DNA from: Spirochaetaceae bacterium | GTDB taxonomy: Bacteria > Spirochaetota > Spirochaetia > DSM-27196 > SLAA01 | DNA length: 47,877 nucleotides | NCBI GenBank assembly: GCA_007695055.1 | Contig: REEM01000135.1 | Location: 1-47,877 of the forward strand | Direction of reading: 5' to 3' | Shown here: piece after piece, positions 35,765 through 46,140 of the stretch | Layout: each line of letters opens with the position of its first letter | Numbering within the stretch: the stretch's first letter is position 1 | The notes under the pieces: generated by a model | Told to the model about the DNA's origin: nothing | Seen by the model: only the letters and a program-made list of their open reading frames with translations | The model's database searches: none | Program-made: the position numbers and the translations under genes

Positions 35765-37897
35765 ATGCTACGGAACTGGAAAAAGACGCTTGGTACTTGG
35801 ATGCATCGGCCGGTGTTGGTGTGTGGGCTTGGGTATATTGTTGTATCGGCGCTTGTCTTTGGTACAACTGCCATGGGCCCCTTGGCCATTGCAGATCCGG
35901 GGCCGGGTGATGCCCCTTATTACTTGCTGATAGCCTTGCACTTTTTGTACGGGCTCGTGCTCCTCATTTCTGCTCTCTTACCAACCCAAGGGGCCTTTGC
36001 TCGCAGGCGCTTATACAGCCTTGCCTTCATACCAGAAGCCCTGTTCTTCTTTGGTCTGCTCTTGTTCTTGTTTGCTTATGTCTTTGCTCTAAACGCAGAG
36101 ATGGACTATGTCCAACGCTTCATAGAAAGCGGCGGCAATTTGCGTCTGGCTCTTGATACCCGCACCGAACGGGCGCGGGCTGCGGCAAGGTTTTTGCCGC
36201 TCATGCTGGCGAACTTGCCTATTTATTTTTACTTTCGCATTGGCAGACGCCAGCTTGCTGAATCGGTACTGCCAGGCTCATGGGGCTTTGGACTCTTTGC
36301 TTTTGGCTGGGTTGCTGTTGCGGTACTTCTTTCGGTTTTTGCTCAACCTTCGTTTCTGCGGCTCAATGGCATACCCTGGCTTGCCTGGATATCCTTGCTA
36401 CCGCTCCTGCTTGTGTGGCGTTTCGCGCGATTCGGGGTTGCCTGGTTCTACGGAATTGCCTACGGAGTCACCACCACACTCTTGACGAATTACTGGCTCG
36501 GAACTTTTAGTCTTGTTTCGTTGCAGTTCGTGACGGTTGTGTTCCTGGGTTACTACATCCTCTTTTCGCCCATTCTCCTCCTGCTGTATAGGCGTACGCG
36601 CGTATCACGGTACTTGATTATTCCTCTGGCCTGGACTGGTTTTGAACTTATCCGTTCATCAGGTTTTCTGGGATATCCGTGGGCGCTGATTGGACATTCG
36701 CAGTGGAGTCTGGTACCACTGATTCAAATCTCCAGTATTACCGGAGTCTGGGGTGTGACTTTTCTCGTTGTGCTGGTGAACACTGCCCTTGCCGAGCATG
36801 TAGGGAGCCGGCTCATTGGCACGAAAGGGCTTGACCGGTGGCAGGGGCGACCATTGAGGGTTGCAGGTATTGCACTGGCAGCAACACTCCTGTACGGTGT
36901 GGTCAGTCTCACCGTTGAGCATTACTTCGGCCCGCCGACCTACGATACCGCACGCGTGGCGCTCATCCAACAAAACTCCGATCCTCGTAAACACGACTAT
37001 GATCACACACTCAATGCCTTGATTAGGCTTACAGATAAGAGTCTGGAACATGAACCCGACCTCATTGTATGGAGCGAAACTGCTTTTGTGCCGAACATTC
37101 GGCGGTGGAGCCAGGAAGACCCTCAGCGACAGTATTTCGCCCGGCTGGTACAGCGTTTTCTGGACTATCTGGAAGAGACTAGCACCTATCTGGTCACCGG
37201 CAACGACGACTATGAACTGGTATTGGACGAAGACGGTAATGAGATAGACCGACTCAACTATAACGCCGCTGTGCTGTTTTCGGACACTGGCGAGCGGAAA
37301 CAAACCTATCACAAGATCCGGCTTGTGCCCTTCACCGAGCATTTCCCCTACAAAGAGACTTTACCCTGGGTTTACAACATGCTTCTTGATTTTGACGTCC
37401 ACTTCTGGGAGCCGGGGAGCGAACGCACCGTTTTTGAGCACCCGAAGTTTGCGTTTGCCACACCGATCTGCTTTGAAGATGTCTTTTCAGACGAGGTGCG
37501 CCACTTTGTGCTGAATGGAGCAGAAGTGATTGTTAATCTCACGAACGACTATTGGTCGCTGAATGAGCTACAGGCTAAGCAACACTTTGCTGGCGGCATG
37601 TTTCGTGCGGTGGAAAACCGACGTCCGGTTGTGCGCGGCACCGCAAGTGGACTCACCTCTGTCATAGATGAGTTTGGCCGCCTTGAAGCTCGGCTCGACT
37701 ACTACGTGGAAGACTATCTGGTACATGATGTTCAGCTGCGGAGTCGAGGCTTGACGGTGTACACCCGTTTTGGCGACTGGTTTCCTGTCTTGTGTTTGCT
37801 TGCAGCGCCTCTTCTATGGTTTGTGTCACGTTTCTATGACCGTCGAAGTCAGCGTGTACGAGTAGGCCGCTTCTACCGTCGATTCGACGCCGGATAA
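35765..37897 (+). CDS. lnt: Apolipoprotein N-acyltransferase
   Basis: Third enzyme of lipoprotein maturation, adding an N-terminal acyl chain to the diacylglyceryl-cysteine at the inner membrane. 710 residues, well above the ~510 of E. coli, mainly because of a longer N-terminal membrane region. Multiple hydrophobic segments fill the first ~380 residues; the nitrilase domain then shows Glu438 (IVWSETAF), Lys517 (HKIRLVPFTEHFPY) and Cys569 (PICFEDVF). A TTGTCG-17-TAGTAT promoter ends 6 bases before ATG. It overlaps the convergent OmpA-like gene by 25 bases. Its presence with lgt places two lipoprotein-maturation genes within 4 kb. Confidence 0.93.
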   Translation: MLRNWKKTLGTWMHRPVLVCGLGYIVVSALVFGTTAMGPLAIADPGPGDAPYYLLIALHFLYGLVLLISALLPTQGAFARRRLYSLAFIPEALFFFGLLLFLFAYVFALNAEMDYVQRFIESGGNLRLALDTRTERARAAARFLPLMLANLPIYFYFRIGRRQLAESVLPGSWGFGLFAFGWVAVAVLLSVFAQPSFLRLNGIPWLAWISLLPLLLVWRFARFGVAWFYGIAYGVTTTLLTNYWLGTFSLVSLQFVTVVFLGYYILFSPILLLLYRRTRVSRYLIIPLAWTGFELIRSSGFLGYPWALIGHSQWSLVPLIQISSITGVWGVTFLVVLVNTALAEHVGSRLIGTKGLDRWQGRPLRVAGIALAATLLYGVVSLTVEHYFGPPTYDTARVALIQQNSDPRKHDYDHTLNALIRLTDKSLEHEPDLIVWSETAFVPNIRRWSQEDPQRQYFARLVQRFLDYLEETSTYLVTGNDDYELVLDEDGNEIDRLNYNAAVLFSDTGERKQTYHKIRLVPFTEHFPYKETLPWVYNMLLDFDVHFWEPGSERTVFEHPKFAFATPICFEDVFSDEVRHFVLNGAEVIVNLTNDYWSLNELQAKQHFAGGMFRAVENRRPVVRGTASGLTSVIDEFGRLEARLDYYVEDYLVHDVQLRSRGLTVYTRFGDWFPVLCLLAAPLLWFVSRFYDRRSQRVRVGRFYRRFDAG

Positions 37898-38880
37898 TGT
37901 AACTCCACCTCAACACGGCGATTCTCGTCCTGTAACTCTGGGTTGAGAGTAAGCGGTTGCTCGGCGCCGAATCCACGAACCTGGACATCCGAGCCAAACT
38001 GAACTCCCGCGGTTAATAGCTCAGCTGACACAGCCTCAGCGCGTTGACGCGAGAGTGGCAAACGTCCAGCTGGCGGCCCGGCTAGCGCGGTATGTCCACT
38101 AATCCGACTGTATGTTGCTGGAGTAGTGGGTAGCTGGGCTGCGAAGTTACGAAGTTCCTGTGCAGCGTGCGCGCTTATTTGGGCACTGTCGGGACGGAAA
38201 TACACAATTAACTCATACTCGCGTGGCTCAGGAGCTTCGGGTTCAGGACTCTCGGGGGTTAGGGTTGTCGGAGCCTCGGCGGCGGCCGGTGGAGCTGGTG
38301 GAGTCGCTGGTTGAGCTGGTTGAGCTGGTTGAGCTGGTTGCTCCACCGGTGGAGCGGCGGCCGGTGGTGGTGTCTCGGGTTCAGGAGGTGCTGCGGGTTG
38401 AGTCGACCTGGTGCGAGGGGTCTCCGTGGTGGCGGCCGGGGCCTCACGTGCTGCTGTCCGGCTGCGTGCCTCTGCCTCAGGTGAGGGGCTTGGCCACATG
38501 AGCCACAAAGCGCCCAGTAGAAGTAGCAGAATAAGCGGCACCGCCGCCACCAAGGGTGAGAGGCCGGGGAGTCGGACATCGCGCTCGGCGTACAGGCGCC
38601 CCTCGTGAAAGAGCTTAAGCTGCGCCCGTCGCTTACCGGTCCAACTGCCATCCAATCTTAGGTCGGGAAAATCGCGCGATGCCCCCCGCGGAGGAATGAA
38701 CTCGAAGTCCGTAATGGGACTGCGTTTCCCTTGGCGTTCATGAAAGACGCTGATAACTGCACGCTGCTGATGAGGGTGAATGGTGGTCAGTCTCACTGAG
38801 CCGTCTGCCCTGTTTTGGTTGTCTAGCAGGGTTTTGTAGCGAGTATGCTCAATCTCTACCGTGAGAAGGTTGTGGGACAT
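37873..38880 (-). CDS. Inner-membrane protein with Pro-rich linker and OmpA-like C-terminal domain
   Basis: 335 residues in three parts: an unassigned basic N-domain (1-105), one membrane segment (about 107-129, PLVAAVPLILLLLLGALWLMW), an Ala/Pro/Glu-rich periplasmic linker (130-220, containing QPA repeats), and an OmpA/MotB-like domain (222-335). The layout resembles MotB-like inner-membrane proteins, with the N-domain cytoplasmic. The peptidoglycan-binding GHTD motif reads GHTA (Ala265), while the partner Arg (LSRQRAEAV, Arg280) is kept, so peptidoglycan binding may be weak or altered. A strong leaderless-type promoter (TTGCAA, 17, CATACT, 6 bases to ATG) precedes it. It lies between lgt and lnt, but on its own promoter. 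Confidence 0.82.
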   Translation of the reverse strand: MSHNLLTVEIEHTRYKTLLDNQNRADGSVRLTTIHPHQQRAVISVFHERQGKRSPITDFEFIPPRGASRDFPDLRLDGSWTGKRRAQLKLFHEGRLYAERDVRLPGLSPLVAAVPLILLLLLGALWLMWPSPSPEAEARSRTAAREAPAATTETPRTRSTQPAAPPEPETPPPAAAPPVEQPAQPAQPAQPATPPAPPAAAEAPTTLTPESPEPEAPEPREYELIVYFRPDSAQISAHAAQELRNFAAQLPTTPATYSRISGHTALAGPPAGRLPLSRQRAEAVSAELLTAGVQFGSDVQVRGFGAEQPLTLNPELQDENRRVEVELHYPASNRR

Positions 38881-38960: not shown

Positions 38961-40007
38961 TCACTTCTTTCGTCCCGCCTTCTTCCGCAGGGCCCGCCGC
39001 TTGTTGGACTCAAGGCTAGCGCCACCCCGTTTTTCGTTACCGGAGCTAAAGGTCTCTACCTTAGGCTCACGGTCCTTGATGTAGGCAAATGCTGCAAGCG
39101 CAACGGCTCCTCCCAGGATCATGAGAGCGCTTAACACCTGCCCCATGGTGAAGTTGAGCGGGCTGACAAAGAGTTGCGGTGGGTTTGGGCGCGAGGAAAG
39201 CCGGATGATAAAGCCGAGTCCTGGGTCTGGTTCGCGGAAGTACTCTGCAATAAAGCGGAATAAGCCGTAACCGATCATGTACATCGATATCATGAATCCA
39301 CGGAAAGGACTGCGTTTGCGAATGACGAACCACAGCAGAAGCCACAGCAGCACACCCTCAAGCCCAGCCTGATACAGCTGTGACGGATGTCGGGGTAGGT
39401 TCACCATTGCACCCGGGTCAAAAGCTATTCCTAGCTCTTCGGCGTAGTTTGCAACCCAGGGCTCAGCAGTGCTGAGTCGGCGAGCCTGTGGGAAAATTAT
39501 ACCCCATGACGCGGTCGTAACACGTCCATACAGCTCACCGTTGATGAAGTTGCCCAGTCGTCCAAAGGTAAAGCCAGCCGGAACAGCCGCAACAATCATG
39601 TCGCCCCAGGTGAGGACATCTAGCTTGCGCACACGACAATAGATTACTGCTCCAATCACGCCACCGAGCATTCCGCCGTGGTAACTCATGCCTTGTAGGC
39701 CGGTGAAGTTCATGTTCTCGTCAAAGGGCCAGAAAATGAGCCAAGGGGCGGCTCGGAACCGGCCGCTGGTATCGTAGATGAGTGCGGCAAATACCCGTGC
39801 ACCCACCAACAACGCAATGATTCCCCAGAAGAACAGGTTCGCAACTTCTTCATTGTCGACCTGGAGTTTTCGTTCTTTTACTTGACGCTGCACCAAATAG
39901 TATCCAACCGCGAAGGCGACGAGGTACATCATGCCGTACCAGCGGAAAGGAAGACCGGGAATAATCTCAGGGGAGAGCCATGCAGGATAGTTCACATATA
40001 AAGGCAT
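38961..40007 (-). CDS. lgt: Prolipoprotein diacylglyceryl transferase
   Basis: First step of lipoprotein maturation: transfers diacylglycerol from phosphatidylglycerol to the lipobox cysteine at the inner membrane. 348 residues with about seven membrane segments, the diagnostic FGRLGNFINGELYGRV signature and PRHPSQLYQAGLEG. The C-terminus has an extra basic tail (Lys/Arg-rich, ending in KKKAGRKK). ATG directly follows the fapA stop (TAAATG) with AAAGGA upstream, so it is translated from the flagellar operon transcript. Confidence 0.94.
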   Translation of the reverse strand: MPLYVNYPAWLSPEIIPGLPFRWYGMMYLVAFAVGYYLVQRQVKERKLQVDNEEVANLFFWGIIALLVGARVFAALIYDTSGRFRAAPWLIFWPFDENMNFTGLQGMSYHGGMLGGVIGAVIYCRVRKLDVLTWGDMIVAAVPAGFTFGRLGNFINGELYGRVTTASWGIIFPQARRLSTAEPWVANYAEELGIAFDPGAMVNLPRHPSQLYQAGLEGVLLWLLLWFVIRKRSPFRGFMISMYMIGYGLFRFIAEYFREPDPGLGFIIRLSSRPNPPQLFVSPLNFTMGQVLSALMILGGAVALAAFAYIKDREPKVETFSSGNEKRGGASLESNKRRALRKKAGRKK

Positions 40008-42953
40008 TTAGCCGTCCTTTGTTTGGAGCTTATTAATTTCTATACGTCCGGATTTCTGTTGAAACTCTACCCGCACCGCCTTGTGAGCCGAGGTGATCTC
40101 TTGACGGCGCCCATGGCTCTCAAAAACTACACCCGGGTAGAGGGTGCCTCTGACTTCAATCCGTGACTCATGATGCTCCTCAAAGCGCTCACGTAGGTCA
40201 AAAAGCCGTAGACTGCGCTTCTCCATGATCTTCATGAGGCGCAGTTTTTCGCGCCGGGCCTTGAGAAGCCCCTCATTATCCAGGTCATGTTCGTACTGAC
40301 GCATCTGAAAGTCAAGATCAGCGGTCTGTTTCTTTAACTTCGCAATTTCGCGTTCTTCTTTCTCAATCTGGTCACCAATGAGATAGTCCTGGCCAAAGGA
40401 CAGCTCCGTTCGTATACCACGGTCATTACCAATGTTGGTGGCCAGCAAGCCTCGTCTTGCCCGAATAGTGCCGCCTACAACCGAGCCTTTCTCACCGGAT
40501 AGCTGTACCACACTGTTACATTTCACATCACAGCGCATGCAGTGATTCTTAACCGTGACGTCGCCAATGGCAAGAATGGTTGCCTGCTCCATAAATGCCG
40601 CAGAAATTCGCTTCTTGCTTCGGAGCACCGCTTTACCTTGGCCCCGGACTCCCTGCTGAATGAGAATATCGTCATCCGCCGAAAGCAAGGCACCGTCCAC
40701 TGACTCGGAAACATGTATAGCACCTGAAGCCATAACCGCGTATCCGTTGGTCACCGAACCAGCAATCTGTACCGTACCCGCAAACTTAATATTCCCGGTC
40801 TGAACTCCGACATCGCCCTGTACGGTATGCGTCTTTCTAACTTCAAGCCGGTTACCCTGTCGAACGAATTCGCCGGCGCAGTCGGCAAGAATAGTAACTT
40901 TGCCGTCTGCCTCCTCACGTCGGGTGAGATTTGACACGAGCTCCACCGGGGCGCCTTCACCGCGCTCCGCTGTGACGGTGTTGCCCAGAACATCTCGTCC
41001 GTCCTCCGGGGTCTTCTCGGCCGGAACTATTTTGGCGACTTCTTGACCGCTCTTGACGGTAATAATACGATTCAGGTTCTTGTAGTCGGCTGCTCCGTCG
41101 CTACCTATAACCACACGGTTGTGCCCGGTCTCGCCGACCAACAGCTCCAGTCTGTCGCTTCCACCATTGCGTGCGGGTAGACCTTCAGCAACCGTAAGCT
41201 CCTTGATCTGTTCACCCTTTGCAAGAGCGCGCAAGGCACCTGCGACGCGGCCCTCAATTATACCTTCGCACACTCCCGCCGCTTTCAGCGCTGCCATGAC
41301 GGCCTCTTCGCCTACCGGTTTGCCAAGGCCAACAGCGGGCGTCAAACTCAAGGCGGCCGACATCTTGTCATCGGCTATAGTGACCTTGATCGCTGCGTCT
41401 TTGTGTGGTCGCACGCGTAAGAGATAACCGTTCTCGGTATCTGCTCGGTCGAGTATTCCTTCAGTCAAGGAAATAATGACGTTTCCTTTCTGCTCTAGGT
41501 TTTCGAATAACCTGAACGTGGGTGCAGGTCCGGGAAGTCCAGGAATGGTAGCCCCGTAGACATTTGTGCCGGGCTGCCCATTCTCGGCTGGTGTAATGGT
41601 GACTATACGCTGATCCTCAATGACCGGGGCCATGTGCGTAACCGCCGTGATTGGCAGCTCCGTAAGCGAGCGCATTCCCGATATGGCATCCGGAAATAGA
41701 CGAGCACGCTCTTTCAGTTGAGCAAGTTTTTCGTCCGGAACTGGATGAGCTTCGAACTCATACTCTTGAGCTTGCCCTACGGTTGGTGCGGTTCCTTCCG
41801 CAAGGATGTATCCGGTGAGTTGCGTCTCAGGGCTCTCGTAGAACTCCATAATATCTTGCTTGATTTGGGCAAGGTTGAGTCCCTTGAGCTTGCTGTCCTT
41901 AATGGCTGCACCCAACTCTTTAAGCGATAGGGGCTTACCTCGGCCGGTGCCTTTGGTAATGTTCAGTACCGCCTTGAGTTTGTCCTCTGACACAAAGATG
42001 TCAAAAGATGCGTCACTGCTCCTGCTGAGCGGGCCGTTCTCAATTGGCTTCATTGTGGCAATAGCGTTGTCGATCATGTCCGCGATTTCGGCAGCGGACA
42101 GGAGCCGGTCTTCGTCATAGCCAAGTTCAACGGCTTTTGCACGAATTGCAGCGGGTTCGGGACGTTCCACCTGCGTGCTGCCGGGTTTAAACTGGAGCAG
42201 TGCGGTTGCTTGATCTTTGCTTAGGATTACTTCCCAGTCATGGGGCGCAAAAGGTACAATATCGACCCAGTTCTTGCCAATTCTCACGAGACCGGTCAGG
42301 GTTGTAAGAAGCTCGTCCCTTTGTTTGTTTACACCACTCCCGGTATAGAACTCCGGGTCTGCTGCCTTCTTAGCGGGAACCATTTGACCGTGGACATCGA
42401 CGCCTGAGACTCCTGCAACTCGAGGTTTCAAGGTGCCAATTTTTGTACCTTCGTACGCGAATCCGCTCTGAATTAAGGTTGGGTCGATGTAGATACGGTC
42501 AAAATACTTCTCAGTTTCAGTGACCTTTTCTTGTTTCGTGCCGAGCAAGGTCTTTTTTTTCACAATTTTGTCGACCTTGCGGGATCGTTCCACACGGATA
42601 TGTGCGGCGCGGGCTTCTGACAAGGTGCTTTCTGCTACCTCGCTCAGATGCGGAGGAATGGAAATGTCCTCCCAGGTCACTGTTTCCGGCTTCTCATCCT
42701 GGGGCGGGATACCTTCCGAGATCGTGATTTTCTCTTTGCTTAGGCTTTTGCGGTTAATCCGGTCCAGATGGTCCACGAGTTCCCGGCGGCTTATGCTTTC
42801 GGAAATGTTTTCCTGAGCCGCTAACTTGAGAATTGTATCTGGTGTATGTTCTGCTCCGTTCGGGTCTCCGGAATACTCCGCAACGACCTTCATTTTGTCT
42901 GGGGCTACCTCAATGGTAATGGTTCCCCGGATGCTTGGCTCTTTGGCGCCCAT
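40008..42953 (-). CDS. fapA: FapA (DUF342) family polymer-like protein with three N-terminal modules
   Basis: 981 residues, longer than the ~550-650 common for FapA/DUF342. Three similar modules sit at about 10-100, 315-420 and 515-620 (each with an xxDKMKA/KLKAVL-type strand, then a helix ending in EG). Then comes a repetitive right-handed beta-helix (about 690-870; GDVGVQTGNIKFAGTV, then SVTNG, DDILIQQGVRG) and a charged coiled coil (about 875-930). FapA links flagellar placement to metabolic signals in Vibrio. Here it follows flhG by 28 bases. No clear Shine-Dalgarno; it may be reinitiated from flhG. Confidence 0.85.
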   Translation of the reverse strand: MGAKEPSIRGTITIEVAPDKMKVVAEYSGDPNGAEHTPDTILKLAAQENISESISRRELVDHLDRINRKSLSKEKITISEGIPPQDEKPETVTWEDISIPPHLSEVAESTLSEARAAHIRVERSRKVDKIVKKKTLLGTKQEKVTETEKYFDRIYIDPTLIQSGFAYEGTKIGTLKPRVAGVSGVDVHGQMVPAKKAADPEFYTGSGVNKQRDELLTTLTGLVRIGKNWVDIVPFAPHDWEVILSKDQATALLQFKPGSTQVERPEPAAIRAKAVELGYDEDRLLSAAEIADMIDNAIATMKPIENGPLSRSSDASFDIFVSEDKLKAVLNITKGTGRGKPLSLKELGAAIKDSKLKGLNLAQIKQDIMEFYESPETQLTGYILAEGTAPTVGQAQEYEFEAHPVPDEKLAQLKERARLFPDAISGMRSLTELPITAVTHMAPVIEDQRIVTITPAENGQPGTNVYGATIPGLPGPAPTFRLFENLEQKGNVIISLTEGILDRADTENGYLLRVRPHKDAAIKVTIADDKMSAALSLTPAVGLGKPVGEEAVMAALKAAGVCEGIIEGRVAGALRALAKGEQIKELTVAEGLPARNGGSDRLELLVGETGHNRVVIGSDGAADYKNLNRIITVKSGQEVAKIVPAEKTPEDGRDVLGNTVTAERGEGAPVELVSNLTRREEADGKVTILADCAGEFVRQGNRLEVRKTHTVQGDVGVQTGNIKFAGTVQIAGSVTNGYAVMASGAIHVSESVDGALLSADDDILIQQGVRGQGKAVLRSKKRISAAFMEQATILAIGDVTVKNHCMRCDVKCNSVVQLSGEKGSVVGGTIRARRGLLATNIGNDRGIRTELSFGQDYLIGDQIEKEEREIAKLKKQTADLDFQMRQYEHDLDNEGLLKARREKLRLMKIMEKRSLRLFDLRERFEEHHESRIEVRGTLYPGVVFESHGRRQEITSAHKAVRVEFQQKSGRIEINKLQTKDG

Positions 42954-42981
42954 AGTTTAGGTTTTCTCACACATAAAGTTG

Positions 42982-44124
42982 TTATGGCCTATAGCCTTGA
43001 TGCATGGCCTTAACCAGTTTTGACTTGTAGAGCGTGTTCTCCTTTTTTAGATGGGAGATCTCAAGGTGCTGATTCTTGATTGTCTCAATAAGATCTCCAG
43101 TAGTCAGCGCCCCTGAATGCAGCAAGTCTTCAATATAATCCATCTTGGACTCAAAATCTGCGGCCGCTTCCAGCTCAGCCTCATTGTAGCCAGACTCAAC
43201 CTCTGACTTTGACAGCGGGCCGCTTGGGTCATCTTCTATTTGGGTGATTTTGTCCGCAATTCGATACAAGGCCTGCGAGAGAACTGAGTTAGGTTTGTAT
43301 ACCAGTATAGGGAGGCGCGAGCCCAAGGCGACGTCCTGGAGGTCGTCCCGGTACGCAATTCCTAGGTGTTCCATATTGAGCCCCAGGTATTGCTGACAAG
43401 ATATACGCAGGCGGTTGATCTTGTCCGAGTCCTTTGGATCCTGAAGCATGTTGAGGATAATCCGTGGATGAAAATGAGACATTGCCTCTTGGTAGGCGTC
43501 GTAACTTTTTGGGTCAAAGGAGCGTATCTTCTCTATGAGGGCCGGGACGTAGAGTTTCTGCAGCGAGGGCGTATCTTTTCGTAGCGTCTCAAGATACTCG
43601 GCAGCCTTACTCTTTTTGCCGAACGAACTCTGAATAATGCGAAAGACCGCGTTTTTGAGAAACAGATACGCATTCACAATTGCGATAGGTGTAGGAGTGG
43701 TTACCACAATACCGTTACCGGACATGAGGAAGAAGTCTATAACGTTGTAGCTCGTTCCCGCTCCAAGATCAAGGATGAGAATATCGCTATCAATAGACCC
43801 AAGCCTGCGGATGAGTTTTCTCTTTTGCCCTGATCCCAAATTGGCAATGCCCGGTATTTCGGCGTCTCCGGGGATGAAACGTAGGTTCTTGTACTCGGTG
43901 TGGATAATAACATCTTCAAACTTTGCCTTGGGATCGGTGAGGAAGGTGCCTATGCCTTTCTGTCCCGCAGGAATCCCTAGCATGAGGTGTTGGTTTGACG
44001 CTCCAAGATCCAGGTCTGCAAGTACAACGCGGCGACCGCTTTGCCCAATGGCTACGGCCAAGTTCGCGGCTACGAGGGACTTGCCTACGCCGCCTTTGCC
44101 ACCGGCAATCGGAAGTATCAACAT
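42982..44124 (-). CDS. flhG: FlhG/YlxH-type MinD-like ATPase
   Basis: 380 residues with a deviant Walker A (GGKGGVGKS, residues 8-16) and the MinD/ParA signature DLDLGASN; LDLGAGTSYNVIDFFL is typical of FlhG. FlhG controls flagellar number and placement, probably by binding FliM/FliN-type switch proteins and FlhF; no FlhF is in the window. The last ~70 residues form an acidic, coiled-coil-like tail not part of the core and could contact FapA (inference). The start ATG follows the upstream stop directly (TAGATG) with GGAGG before it, so translation is coupled. Confidence 0.9.
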   Translation of the reverse strand: MLILPIAGGKGGVGKSLVAANLAVAIGQSGRRVVLADLDLGASNQHLMLGIPAGQKGIGTFLTDPKAKFEDVIIHTEYKNLRFIPGDAEIPGIANLGSGQKRKLIRRLGSIDSDILILDLGAGTSYNVIDFFLMSGNGIVVTTPTPIAIVNAYLFLKNAVFRIIQSSFGKKSKAAEYLETLRKDTPSLQKLYVPALIEKIRSFDPKSYDAYQEAMSHFHPRIILNMLQDPKDSDKINRLRISCQQYLGLNMEHLGIAYRDDLQDVALGSRLPILVYKPNSVLSQALYRIADKITQIEDDPSGPLSKSEVESGYNEAELEAAADFESKMDYIEDLLHSGALTTGDLIETIKNQHLEISHLKKENTLYKSKLVKAMHQGYRP

Positions 44125-44535
44125 CTATTCCTCCGGTTCATGTCGCAATGATACCAGGAACACCGTGAAAAGAAAATCGATACCTAGTACAAGAATTCCA
44201 AATGATACCTGAGGGTTAAGCATGGGCTGCAGCAGTAGCGCCGGAATTGATGAACCTCCAGCAATTGCGGGCACCGCAAGCACACCAACGAACAGAGAAA
44301 GCACCTTGGCAACAATGATCAATTGCAAGAAAGGCCGATACTTGAGCGGGCGCCAAGCGGCGAAAAAGAAGCCAGCCGACAGGCTTAGTTGGGGGGCTCC
44401 AAACCATAATAGACCCAGATATCCGGCCGCCAACGTTGTGAGCGAAGGCGAGGCCGCGTAGAGCGTGTACAACGCAGCGAACCGAAATACCTCCCAGAAG
44501 GCTCCGATGTAAAGAATGAGCTTTGTAGGACGCAT
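44125..44535 (-). CDS. Small membrane protein upstream of flhG, unknown function
   Basis: 136 residues with four hydrophobic segments (LILYIGAFWEVFRFAALYTLY; LTTLAAGYLGLLWFGA; LQLIIVAKVLSLFVGVLAVPA; VSFGILVLGIDFLFTVFLV). No family is recognised. It is the first gene of the flhG-fapA-lgt operon, which suggests a membrane partner in flagellar placement or lipoprotein export, but the sequence gives no direct support. ATG 44535 is chosen because TTGACC-17-TAAACT ends 7 bases before it; a TTG start at 44571 would overlap this promoter. Confidence 0.7.
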   Translation of the reverse strand: MRPTKLILYIGAFWEVFRFAALYTLYAASPSLTTLAAGYLGLLWFGAPQLSLSAGFFFAAWRPLKYRPFLQLIIVAKVLSLFVGVLAVPAIAGGSSIPALLLQPMLNPQVSFGILVLGIDFLFTVFLVSLRHEPEE

Positions 44536-44571
44536 TGGGGCGAGTTTACGGACGAATCTAGGCCCGGTCAA
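44536..44571 (-). promoter_or_regulatory. Promoter of the small membrane protein-flhG-fapA-lgt operon, leaderless type
   Basis: TTGACC (44571-44566), 17 bases, TAAACT (44548-44543), 7 bases to ATG 44535. Later genes of the operon use Shine-Dalgarno or stop-start coupling. Confidence 0.7.
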
Positions 44572-44676
44572 TAGAAAGTTCCGCTCAAGGACTGTATATT
44601 CAGAAAGAGATATTGAGTAGTGTCGCGGCTGACAGCCGCTTTAGTCGAGTGTACCGGACATGAGGAGTACAATGGT

Positions 44677-46140
44677 ATGGCAATTGATGGCGAAAAAAAA
44701 GTAGCACGGAGTGAACGAGCGGTATGGGTGGGGATTACCACTATGCTGTGCGTTGGACTTTTGATTGTGTTGGTTTCCCCTGCAGTCTTTGCGCAGGGTT
44801 TACAGTCGAGTAACGACCGACATATTGAGGTCTTTCGGCAGATCTTTGAGTTTATTGAAAACAACTATGTCGACGAGGTCGATGCAGAAGAACTGTTGGA
44901 AGGCGCGCTTAAGGGGATGTTTGATAGCCTAGATGACCCGCACTCGGCCTACCTGACCGCGCGTGATATGCGTGGGCTGACGGACACCACTGCCGGTGAG
45001 TTTGGCGGAGTTGGACTCAACATTGTCAAACAACCCAGTAGCAATGACAGCGGTGGATTTGTTGAGGTTGTGTCTCCTATAGAGGGTACACCGGCATTTG
45101 AGGCTGGTATTATTGCTGGCGATCTCATTGTAGAAATTGAAGATGACTCGACGCGACCTCTGAGCATGGATGAGGTACTCAATCGGCTGCGTGGCACCCC
45201 TGGTAGTGACGTCACAGTCACCATACAGCGTGGTTCTCAGCATCGCTTTCCGGTAACCATTACGCGAGCTATCATTGAGGTTCCCACGGTCCGAAGAGAC
45301 ATGATCGGTGACGATATTGGATTTCTCCGCATTATTCAGTTTACCCCCCACACCGACGATCGGGTGAAGGAAGCAATTGAGTACTTCAAGGGGAACGGCT
45401 ATAGCTCCATGGTTATAGACCTACGCAGTAACCCGGGCGGCATGCTCACCGGGGTGGTTGATACCGCCAACCTCTTTTTTTCCGGAGGCACAATTGTCGG
45501 AACTCGTGGGCGGGTTCCAAGTGAAAATAAGGTCTTTTCCGCCCGCCGTGGACAGGAGGTGCCGGACGAGCTGCCAATTATTGTACTCATAGACGGGGGC
45601 TCAGCCTCTGCTGCGGAGATCCTTGCGGGCGCCCTCAAAGATCGTGAACGCGCACTGGTACTTGGCGAGACAACCTTTGGCAAGGGCTCGGTCCAGCAGG
45701 TACGGCGTATTGGAGCAGGCGGGTTCCGGCTTACAATGTCCCGCTACTACACTCCCAGCGGAGTCTATATAGACAAAGAAGGTATAGTTCCAGATATTGA
45801 GCTGTCACTGCCGAGTCTTGAAGATGATGAGATTGAGGCCTTTGCCAGGCTTCGCACCGATGGCCTGGTGCGCGAGTTTGTTGCCGAGGAAGCCGATCGC
45901 TCACCTGCCGAAATAGACGCCTTCATCCAAAAACTTCAAGATGACGGTTACGCTATTCCGGACTTCTACCTGCGGCGAATGATTCGTGATGCGGCTAATC
46001 GGGCAGCCGGGGTTACCTTGGTGTACGACCTGGAATTTGACCCTGTGTTGCAAGAAGCGGTTCGCATTCTGCGTGAAGGTGAGTACCGCAATGAACTCCG
46101 CGCCGCTGCGGCCGCAGCAGCTGGTGGATCCAACAATTAG
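44677..46140 (+). CDS. ctpA: C-terminal processing peptidase (S41)
   Basis: Periplasmic serine protease that trims the C-termini of exported proteins. 487 residues: an N-terminal signal/anchor (AVWVGITTMLCVGLLIVLVSPAVFA), a helical region, a PDZ domain at about 90-175 (GGVGLNIV, GTPAFEAGIIAGDLIVEI) and the S41 catalytic domain with Ser311 (GGSASAAE) and Lys336 (FGKGSVQQ). An Ala-rich C-terminus follows. The frame opens at GTG 44620, but ATG 44677 has GAGGAG 9 bases upstream and starts just before the signal region, so it is preferred. rsmE follows by 15 bases. Confidence 0.94.
   Translation: MAIDGEKKVARSERAVWVGITTMLCVGLLIVLVSPAVFAQGLQSSNDRHIEVFRQIFEFIENNYVDEVDAEELLEGALKGMFDSLDDPHSAYLTARDMRGLTDTTAGEFGGVGLNIVKQPSSNDSGGFVEVVSPIEGTPAFEAGIIAGDLIVEIEDDSTRPLSMDEVLNRLRGTPGSDVTVTIQRGSQHRFPVTITRAIIEVPTVRRDMIGDDIGFLRIIQFTPHTDDRVKEAIEYFKGNGYSSMVIDLRSNPGGMLTGVVDTANLFFSGGTIVGTRGRVPSENKVFSARRGQEVPDELPIIVLIDGGSASAAEILAGALKDRERALVLGETTFGKGSVQQVRRIGAGGFRLTMSRYYTPSGVYIDKEGIVPDIELSLPSLEDDEIEAFARLRTDGLVREFVAEEADRSPAEIDAFIQKLQDDGYAIPDFYLRRMIRDAANRAAGVTLVYDLEFDPVLQEAVRILREGEYRNELRAAAAAAAGGSNN

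Follow-up and report, generated by a model that had tools for sequence, protein, structure and literature searches.

Why should genes for a MinD-type ATPase and a FapA-type protein lie directly upstream of lgt in a spirochaete? We addressed this question in a window of 47,877 nucleotides, the whole stretch of DNA analysed, from the genome of a Spirochaetaceae bacterium (contig REEM01000135.1). Four open reading frames (ORFs) follow one another head to tail on its minus strand, with intergenic spacings of 0, 28, and 0 bases. In the order of transcription, they encode a small membrane protein (44125–44571 with a TTG start, 148 amino acids (aa), or 44125–44535 with an ATG start, 136 aa), a MinD/ParA-type ATPase (42982–44124, 380 aa), a FapA-type scaffold (40008–42953, 981 aa), and Lgt, the prolipoprotein diacylglyceryl transferase (38961–40007, 348 aa; TIGR00544, 227.3 bits for a cut-off of 118.9). 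A first-pass annotation, made from the letters of the sequence, had placed all four genes within 40008–44535; the gene run is real, but lgt lies outside that interval. The operon is real, old, and spirochaetal, and is organised around a MinD-type ATPase that is not FlhG. That this class-wide operon encodes a membrane-bound MinD/ParA-type spatial-organising system is, in our estimation, an evenly balanced proposition.

The gene order was found to be conserved across the class Spirochaetia. The ATPase profile matched 185 of 248 class genomes at 1e-50, and an operon-type FapA was detected in 106 of the 248 at 1e-150. Ninety-six of these 106 genomes also had a listed ATPase match, and in 89 of them FapA was located directly downstream of the ATPase on the same strand, the median gap of such pairs being 30 bases. 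For the remaining seven, the two genes were on different contigs in six cases, and a partial FapA match was present on the ATPase's contig in one. In the window's own family, the full order was observed in six of seven fetched loci, the exception (G004) being without FapA. A sample of 80 named loci, all from spirochaetes except one labelled only "bacterium", gave FapA directly downstream of the ATPase in 49 of the 67 loci with room for it, Lgt in 42 of 52 with room (15 loci have Lgt without FapA), and a divergent CtpA in 51 of 70 with room. A membrane ORF was directly upstream of the ATPase in 57 of 76, a rough count (threshold of three hydropathy peaks) because hydropathy misses two of the four helices in the window's membrane protein. 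Since ORF picking in these loci failed to report the ATPase of L085 and of L104, and some FapA genes as well, 89 of 96 is the better count of adjacency. The openly licensed literature yielded no study of this ATPase–FapA–Lgt cluster.

Outside the class, only five genomes of the phylum sample (G250, G252, G262, G263, and G271) matched the ATPase, with E-values of 1e-106 to 1e-98; these more distant relatives belong to other classes of the phylum. Operon-type FapA was also seen in G048, G023, G159, G176, and G197 without any ATPase match at 1e-50, and FapA may thus exist without this ATPase (G048 is 94% complete).

The ATPase is a member of the MinD/ParA P-loop superfamily (Pfam CbiA/ParA), and GKGGVGK, with the deviant Walker A motif KGGVGK, was invariant in 21 aligned ATPases. 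The first-pass annotation had called this protein FlhG, a label that we do not retain. According to an excerpt of PMC12826062, FlhG is marked by an N-terminal DQAxxLR enhancer helix; this motif was found in the first 40 residues of none of 46 window-type ATPases, and no flhF was found in the window neighbourhood of the ATPase. A search of the same genome detected flhF at 2356–3201 of contig C50, followed by an FlhG ORF with DQAETLR at residues 3–9. The order on C50 is flhA, flhF, and FlhG; two more ORFs, as judged by eye, come after these, one resembling a sigma factor and the other, of which the contig end leaves only the start, resembling FapA. The ATPase of the window is thus not FlhG, because it is devoid of the enhancer helix and because the genome holds a separate flhA-flhF-flhG set with the motif. 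It was likewise rejected as a canonical MinD, since it scored far below the cut-offs of the curated models (TIGR01969, 77.5 bits for a cut-off of 201.75; TIGR01968, 51.7 bits for a cut-off of 212.9). It is 26% identical to the FlhG of its genome, and 38% and 35% identical to two other paralogues. As judged from sequence, it is a spirochaete MinD/ParA-type paralogue, neither FlhG nor canonical MinD.

The extra C-terminal tail described by the first-pass annotation was confirmed as a conserved feature: it covers residues about 330–380 (42985–43137) in the alignments, appears helical or coiled by eye, matches a loose pattern in 45 of the 46 window-type ATPases, and is retained at loci without FapA. 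A C-terminal helix that targets the membrane is a further mark of FlhG.

Further MinD paralogues were seen in the same genome. One, in L029 (G000:C218, 7864–8991), has 375 aa, is 38% identical to the window ATPase, and has a coiled-type end of its own. Two others, G000:C231:219-1187 and G000:C61:1-751, share identical first 60 residues and are seemingly the same paralogue cut at contig ends, perhaps a duplicated or strain-variant assembly end.

The second component belongs to the FapA family (PF20250, 208.5 bits for a cut-off of 27; PF03961, 183.6 bits for a cut-off of 31), and Pfam reports FapA_N in four stretches and one FapA solenoid. The three N-modules announced by the first-pass annotation are mutually homologous in profile comparisons (hhalign, 48 sequences, probabilities of 99.0–99.6%), and an extra half-module is also present. 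Module 1 corresponds to residues about 5–238 (42240–42941; 99.5% against module 2 and 99.0% against module 3), module 2 to residues 309–512 (41418–42029; 99.6% against module 3), and module 3 to residues 513–706 (40836–41417), where the best Pfam FapA_N stretch is located (522–700). The half-module, residues 240–308 (42030–42236), has the first subdomain only, as delimited by hhalign and the structural model, and is similar to the N-terminal half of module 3 (92.5%, E 5e-7), with only 12.4% against module 2. In the AlphaFold2 model, a strand-strand-helix-helix-strand unit recurs four times, at 8–80, 239–308, 316–386, and 521–590. A beta-solenoid begins at residue 707 (40011–40835; PF03961 at 709–967) and is accompanied by long helices at 857–889 and 893–924 and by C-terminal strands; the arrangement of the domains in this model is unsure (pLDDT 86.9, pTM 0.43). 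Most full-length relatives have a length close to 980 residues. No convincing relative was found in the PDB by sequence and none with a significant Foldseek E-value, and the bL27-like structural matches of modules 2 and 3 (Z about 7) are in the range of common arrangements.

Four FapA matches were present in the genome of the window. The flagellar FapA is apparently split across contig ends, with its start on C50 (L032) and the rest on C2 (L026). The operon contains a second MinD-FapA pair, beside the ordinary flagellar FlhG-FapA pair and distinct from it.

The first gene encodes, as the first-pass annotation had it, a four-segment membrane protein with no family assignment. The AlphaFold2 model of the 136-aa form has four main helices (pLDDT 88.9), from which the protein is predicted to be membrane-embedded. 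Among 26 aligned sequences, Arg18 in helix 1 is invariant and Asp120 in helix 4 is at least 90% conserved (numbering from the ATG). No Pfam family passed its cut-off for the small protein, none of the 26 aligned sequences did better than E 0.019 with Pfam, NCBIfam returned no match, and a PDB fold search with the model gave no significant match. A profile of the protein matched 26 of 40 class loci with E-values up to 2.2e-7, some of those contigs having also contributed to the profile, and the protein was found in eight of nine genomes of the window's family. The first-pass annotation had tied its proposal both to a conserved order and to the occurrence of this protein in other flagellated spirochaetes: the order is conserved, but the protein was undetected in some flagellated members.

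Around the cluster, ctpA (S41 protease, Pfam Peptidase_S41; 44620–46140, plus strand) is divergently transcribed, as is a Pfam-named WecG gene beyond it, and the one ORF between these two is presumably RsmE. An OmpA-type gene and lnt are located downstream of lgt; the OmpA-type protein (37873–38880) has a long Pro/Ala-rich linker, and the 3′ end of its gene overlaps the 3′ end of lnt. Promoter and terminator scans gave results near chance level.

Does the operon serve the flagella? The first reading to be weighed, which we hold to be a reasonable but less than even prospect, is that the ATPase and FapA act alongside FlhF/FlhG to determine how many periplasmic flagella there are or where they lie. 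The family name of FapA and work in Vibrio, where FapA is a polar flagellar-assembly protein according to the titles of Park 2016 and Park 2019 (listed among the references of PMC6877527 and PMC8789113), are in its favour, and so is the distribution of the genes. When ten genomes whose best ATPase match was poorer than E 1e-110 were taken to hold paralogues only, 173 of the 248 genomes had both FlhA and an orthologue-level ATPase, 29 had FlhA only, 44 had neither, and the two with only the ATPase are fragmented. Thus, 44 of 46 FlhA-negative genomes are also without the ATPase and 173 of 175 ATPase genomes have FlhA, with a Fisher p of about 1e-26 that treats related genomes as independent. In a CtpA+Lgt tree of 72 rows, however, the 11 FlhA-negative rows formed a single clade (SH-aLRT 100), so that the joint loss of the ATPase and FlhA counts as one event, and an independent-pairs test found one pair (p = 1). 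The association was therefore rejected as proof of a flagellar role. This tree came from a quick search, with several rows occupying no more than about 40% of the columns; five Borrelia-type rows were excluded beforehand. FlhA changes once on it, the ATPase four times (70 rows, without G048 and G202) or six times with both, and FapA nine times (71 rows, four rows being left out for FapA), counts that cannot separate gain from loss; if the changes are losses, the ATPase disappeared about three times from lineages that kept FlhA, and FapA more often.

The 29 FlhA-positive genomes without an orthologue-level ATPase are in part fragmented assemblies, but at least three such lineages have an intact ctpA-lgt locus, and no flagellar gene was found adjacent to the cluster in the window by ORFs and Pfam; both observations count against a flagellar accessory. 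Cell shape is not separable from flagella in this comparison, because MreB, used as a control, had a strong match in only four of the 46 FlhA-negative genomes. A service to the flagella, including the flagellar placement proposed by the first-pass annotation, is no more than possible, given a single joint loss and several flagellated lineages without the ATPase.

The Borrelia-type locus brings another argument for a flagellar link. All nine such loci contain CtpA, the membrane protein, the ATPase, Lgt, and an ORF of 663–670 aa, without FapA; this last ORF encoded an EAL protein in the one locus tested, and is PdeA by gene order. The small protein of Borrelia reached only E 0.82 against our profile and was equated on the basis of its location and its predicted helices. 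The locus corresponds in gene order and size to bb0360-bb0364 of B. burgdorferi, with its divergent CtpA, four-helix protein, ATPase, and Lgt; it differs from the window in that FapA is missing and an EAL phosphodiesterase follows. These genes are reported to be co-transcribed, and motility to require bb0363, a phosphodiesterase (Sultan 2010, cited in an excerpt of PMC9108270); a PdeA mutant is unable to reverse its swimming (excerpt of PMC4013479). In these excerpts, a mutant is described only for bb0363.

A second system of B. burgdorferi, the FlhF/FlhG-FlgV-FapA sub-module (bb0270-bb0267, in an excerpt of PMC11607428), also combines a MinD-type ATPase, FapA, and a small membrane protein in one operon. 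In contrast, the window cluster has no flhF and no DQAxxLR, and lgt stands in place of flagellar neighbours. FlgV, according to the same excerpt, has two transmembrane helices and lies inside the flagellar superoperon, whereas the protein of the window is four-helical in its model and is found beside ctpA and lgt; we therefore rejected its identification as FlgV.

Next, the ATPase and the four-helix protein might position or regulate Lgt and the maturation of lipoproteins where the envelope grows, which we regard as rather unlikely. The adjacency of Lgt is retained with or without FapA, and ctpA and lnt are nearby. We also took the lgt region from 18 genomes without an orthologue-level ATPase match, including 11 FlhA-negative genomes. 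In ten of these 11, CtpA was divergent beside Lgt with neither MinD nor FapA, the eleventh being cut by a contig end. The small-protein profile matched between CtpA and Lgt in three of the 11 (G038, G011, and G025; E 7e-7 to 6e-11), and the protein was also present there in the FlhA-positive genomes G019, G181, and G207, which are without MinD; G202 gave a match too, but its contig begins there. The protein is not tied to flagella, since three FlhA-negative genomes have kept it in the interval from ctpA to lgt. MinD–FapA is thus present or absent, whole or in part, from one genome to another, and the membrane protein can remain with lgt. Against an envelope role, the argument is one of neighbourhood alone, the profile search did not find the four-helix protein in the remaining FlhA-negative lgt loci, and in most bacteria Lgt functions in the absence of this ATPase.

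A Min-like division-site system, in which FapA replaces MinC, seems improbable to us. As in MinCD, a MinD-type ATPase stands beside a beta-solenoid protein, and MinC_C exceeded its cut-off in none of 119 Spirochaetia genomes and in six of 14 control genomes; the comparison covered MinC_C, no search having been made for the N-terminal domain of MinC. Weak MinC_C matches were seen in 13 of the 119 genomes, two of the listed places being inside operon-type FapA genes (G026 and G020), and in six of 34 FapA relatives (best E 0.0011). The window FapA itself reached only E 0.11, and a direct profile comparison of FapA with E. coli MinC gave a negligible probability of 2.5%, the best of 30 shuffles giving 0.8%. 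The likeness between FapA and MinC is weak, and is a lead only.

Equally improbable are unrelated genes held together by slow rearrangement. Many families preserve the gene order with its near-zero spacing, and co-transcription of the Borrelia genes has been reported (excerpt of PMC9108270), although FlhA-negative genomes that keep ctpA beside lgt without MinD–FapA show a locus that tolerates gene turnover.

In the spatial-organising system that we favour, the ATP-bound ATPase would attach to the membrane. Since loci without FapA still have the tail of the ATPase, this tail would be held by some other partner; FapA itself, at the loci that have it, would act as a removable adaptor linking the ATPase to a cargo. 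This cargo would most likely be at the cell pole or growth zone, either flagellar basal bodies or the adjoining lipoprotein and envelope machinery. Several points weigh against this proposal: the openly licensed literature yielded no experimental work on this ATPase or FapA, conservation of a neighbourhood does not prove that its genes work together, CtpA and Lgt adjoin even where MinD–FapA is missing, and contact between FapA and MinD by analogy with MinC relies on weak matches.

More speculatively, and we think this unlikely, spirochaetes may have their own MinD-FapA positioning machine, with a four-helix anchor, whose place next to lgt marks the meeting point of periplasmic flagella, envelope growth, and lipoprotein loading, and which does the job of Min or a polar landmark in a class without MinC. 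The operon bears on how spirochaetes place their flagella, growth zones, and division sites, as no MinC was found over the cut-off in 119 genomes, and the labels FlhG or MinD on its ATPase would mislead work on spirochaete positioning. This class-wide MinD–FapA operon is unstudied, and its Borrelia counterpart, already a mapped transcription unit, offers a direct test, for which the genomes that naturally lack FapA, MinD–FapA, or flagella are a guide.

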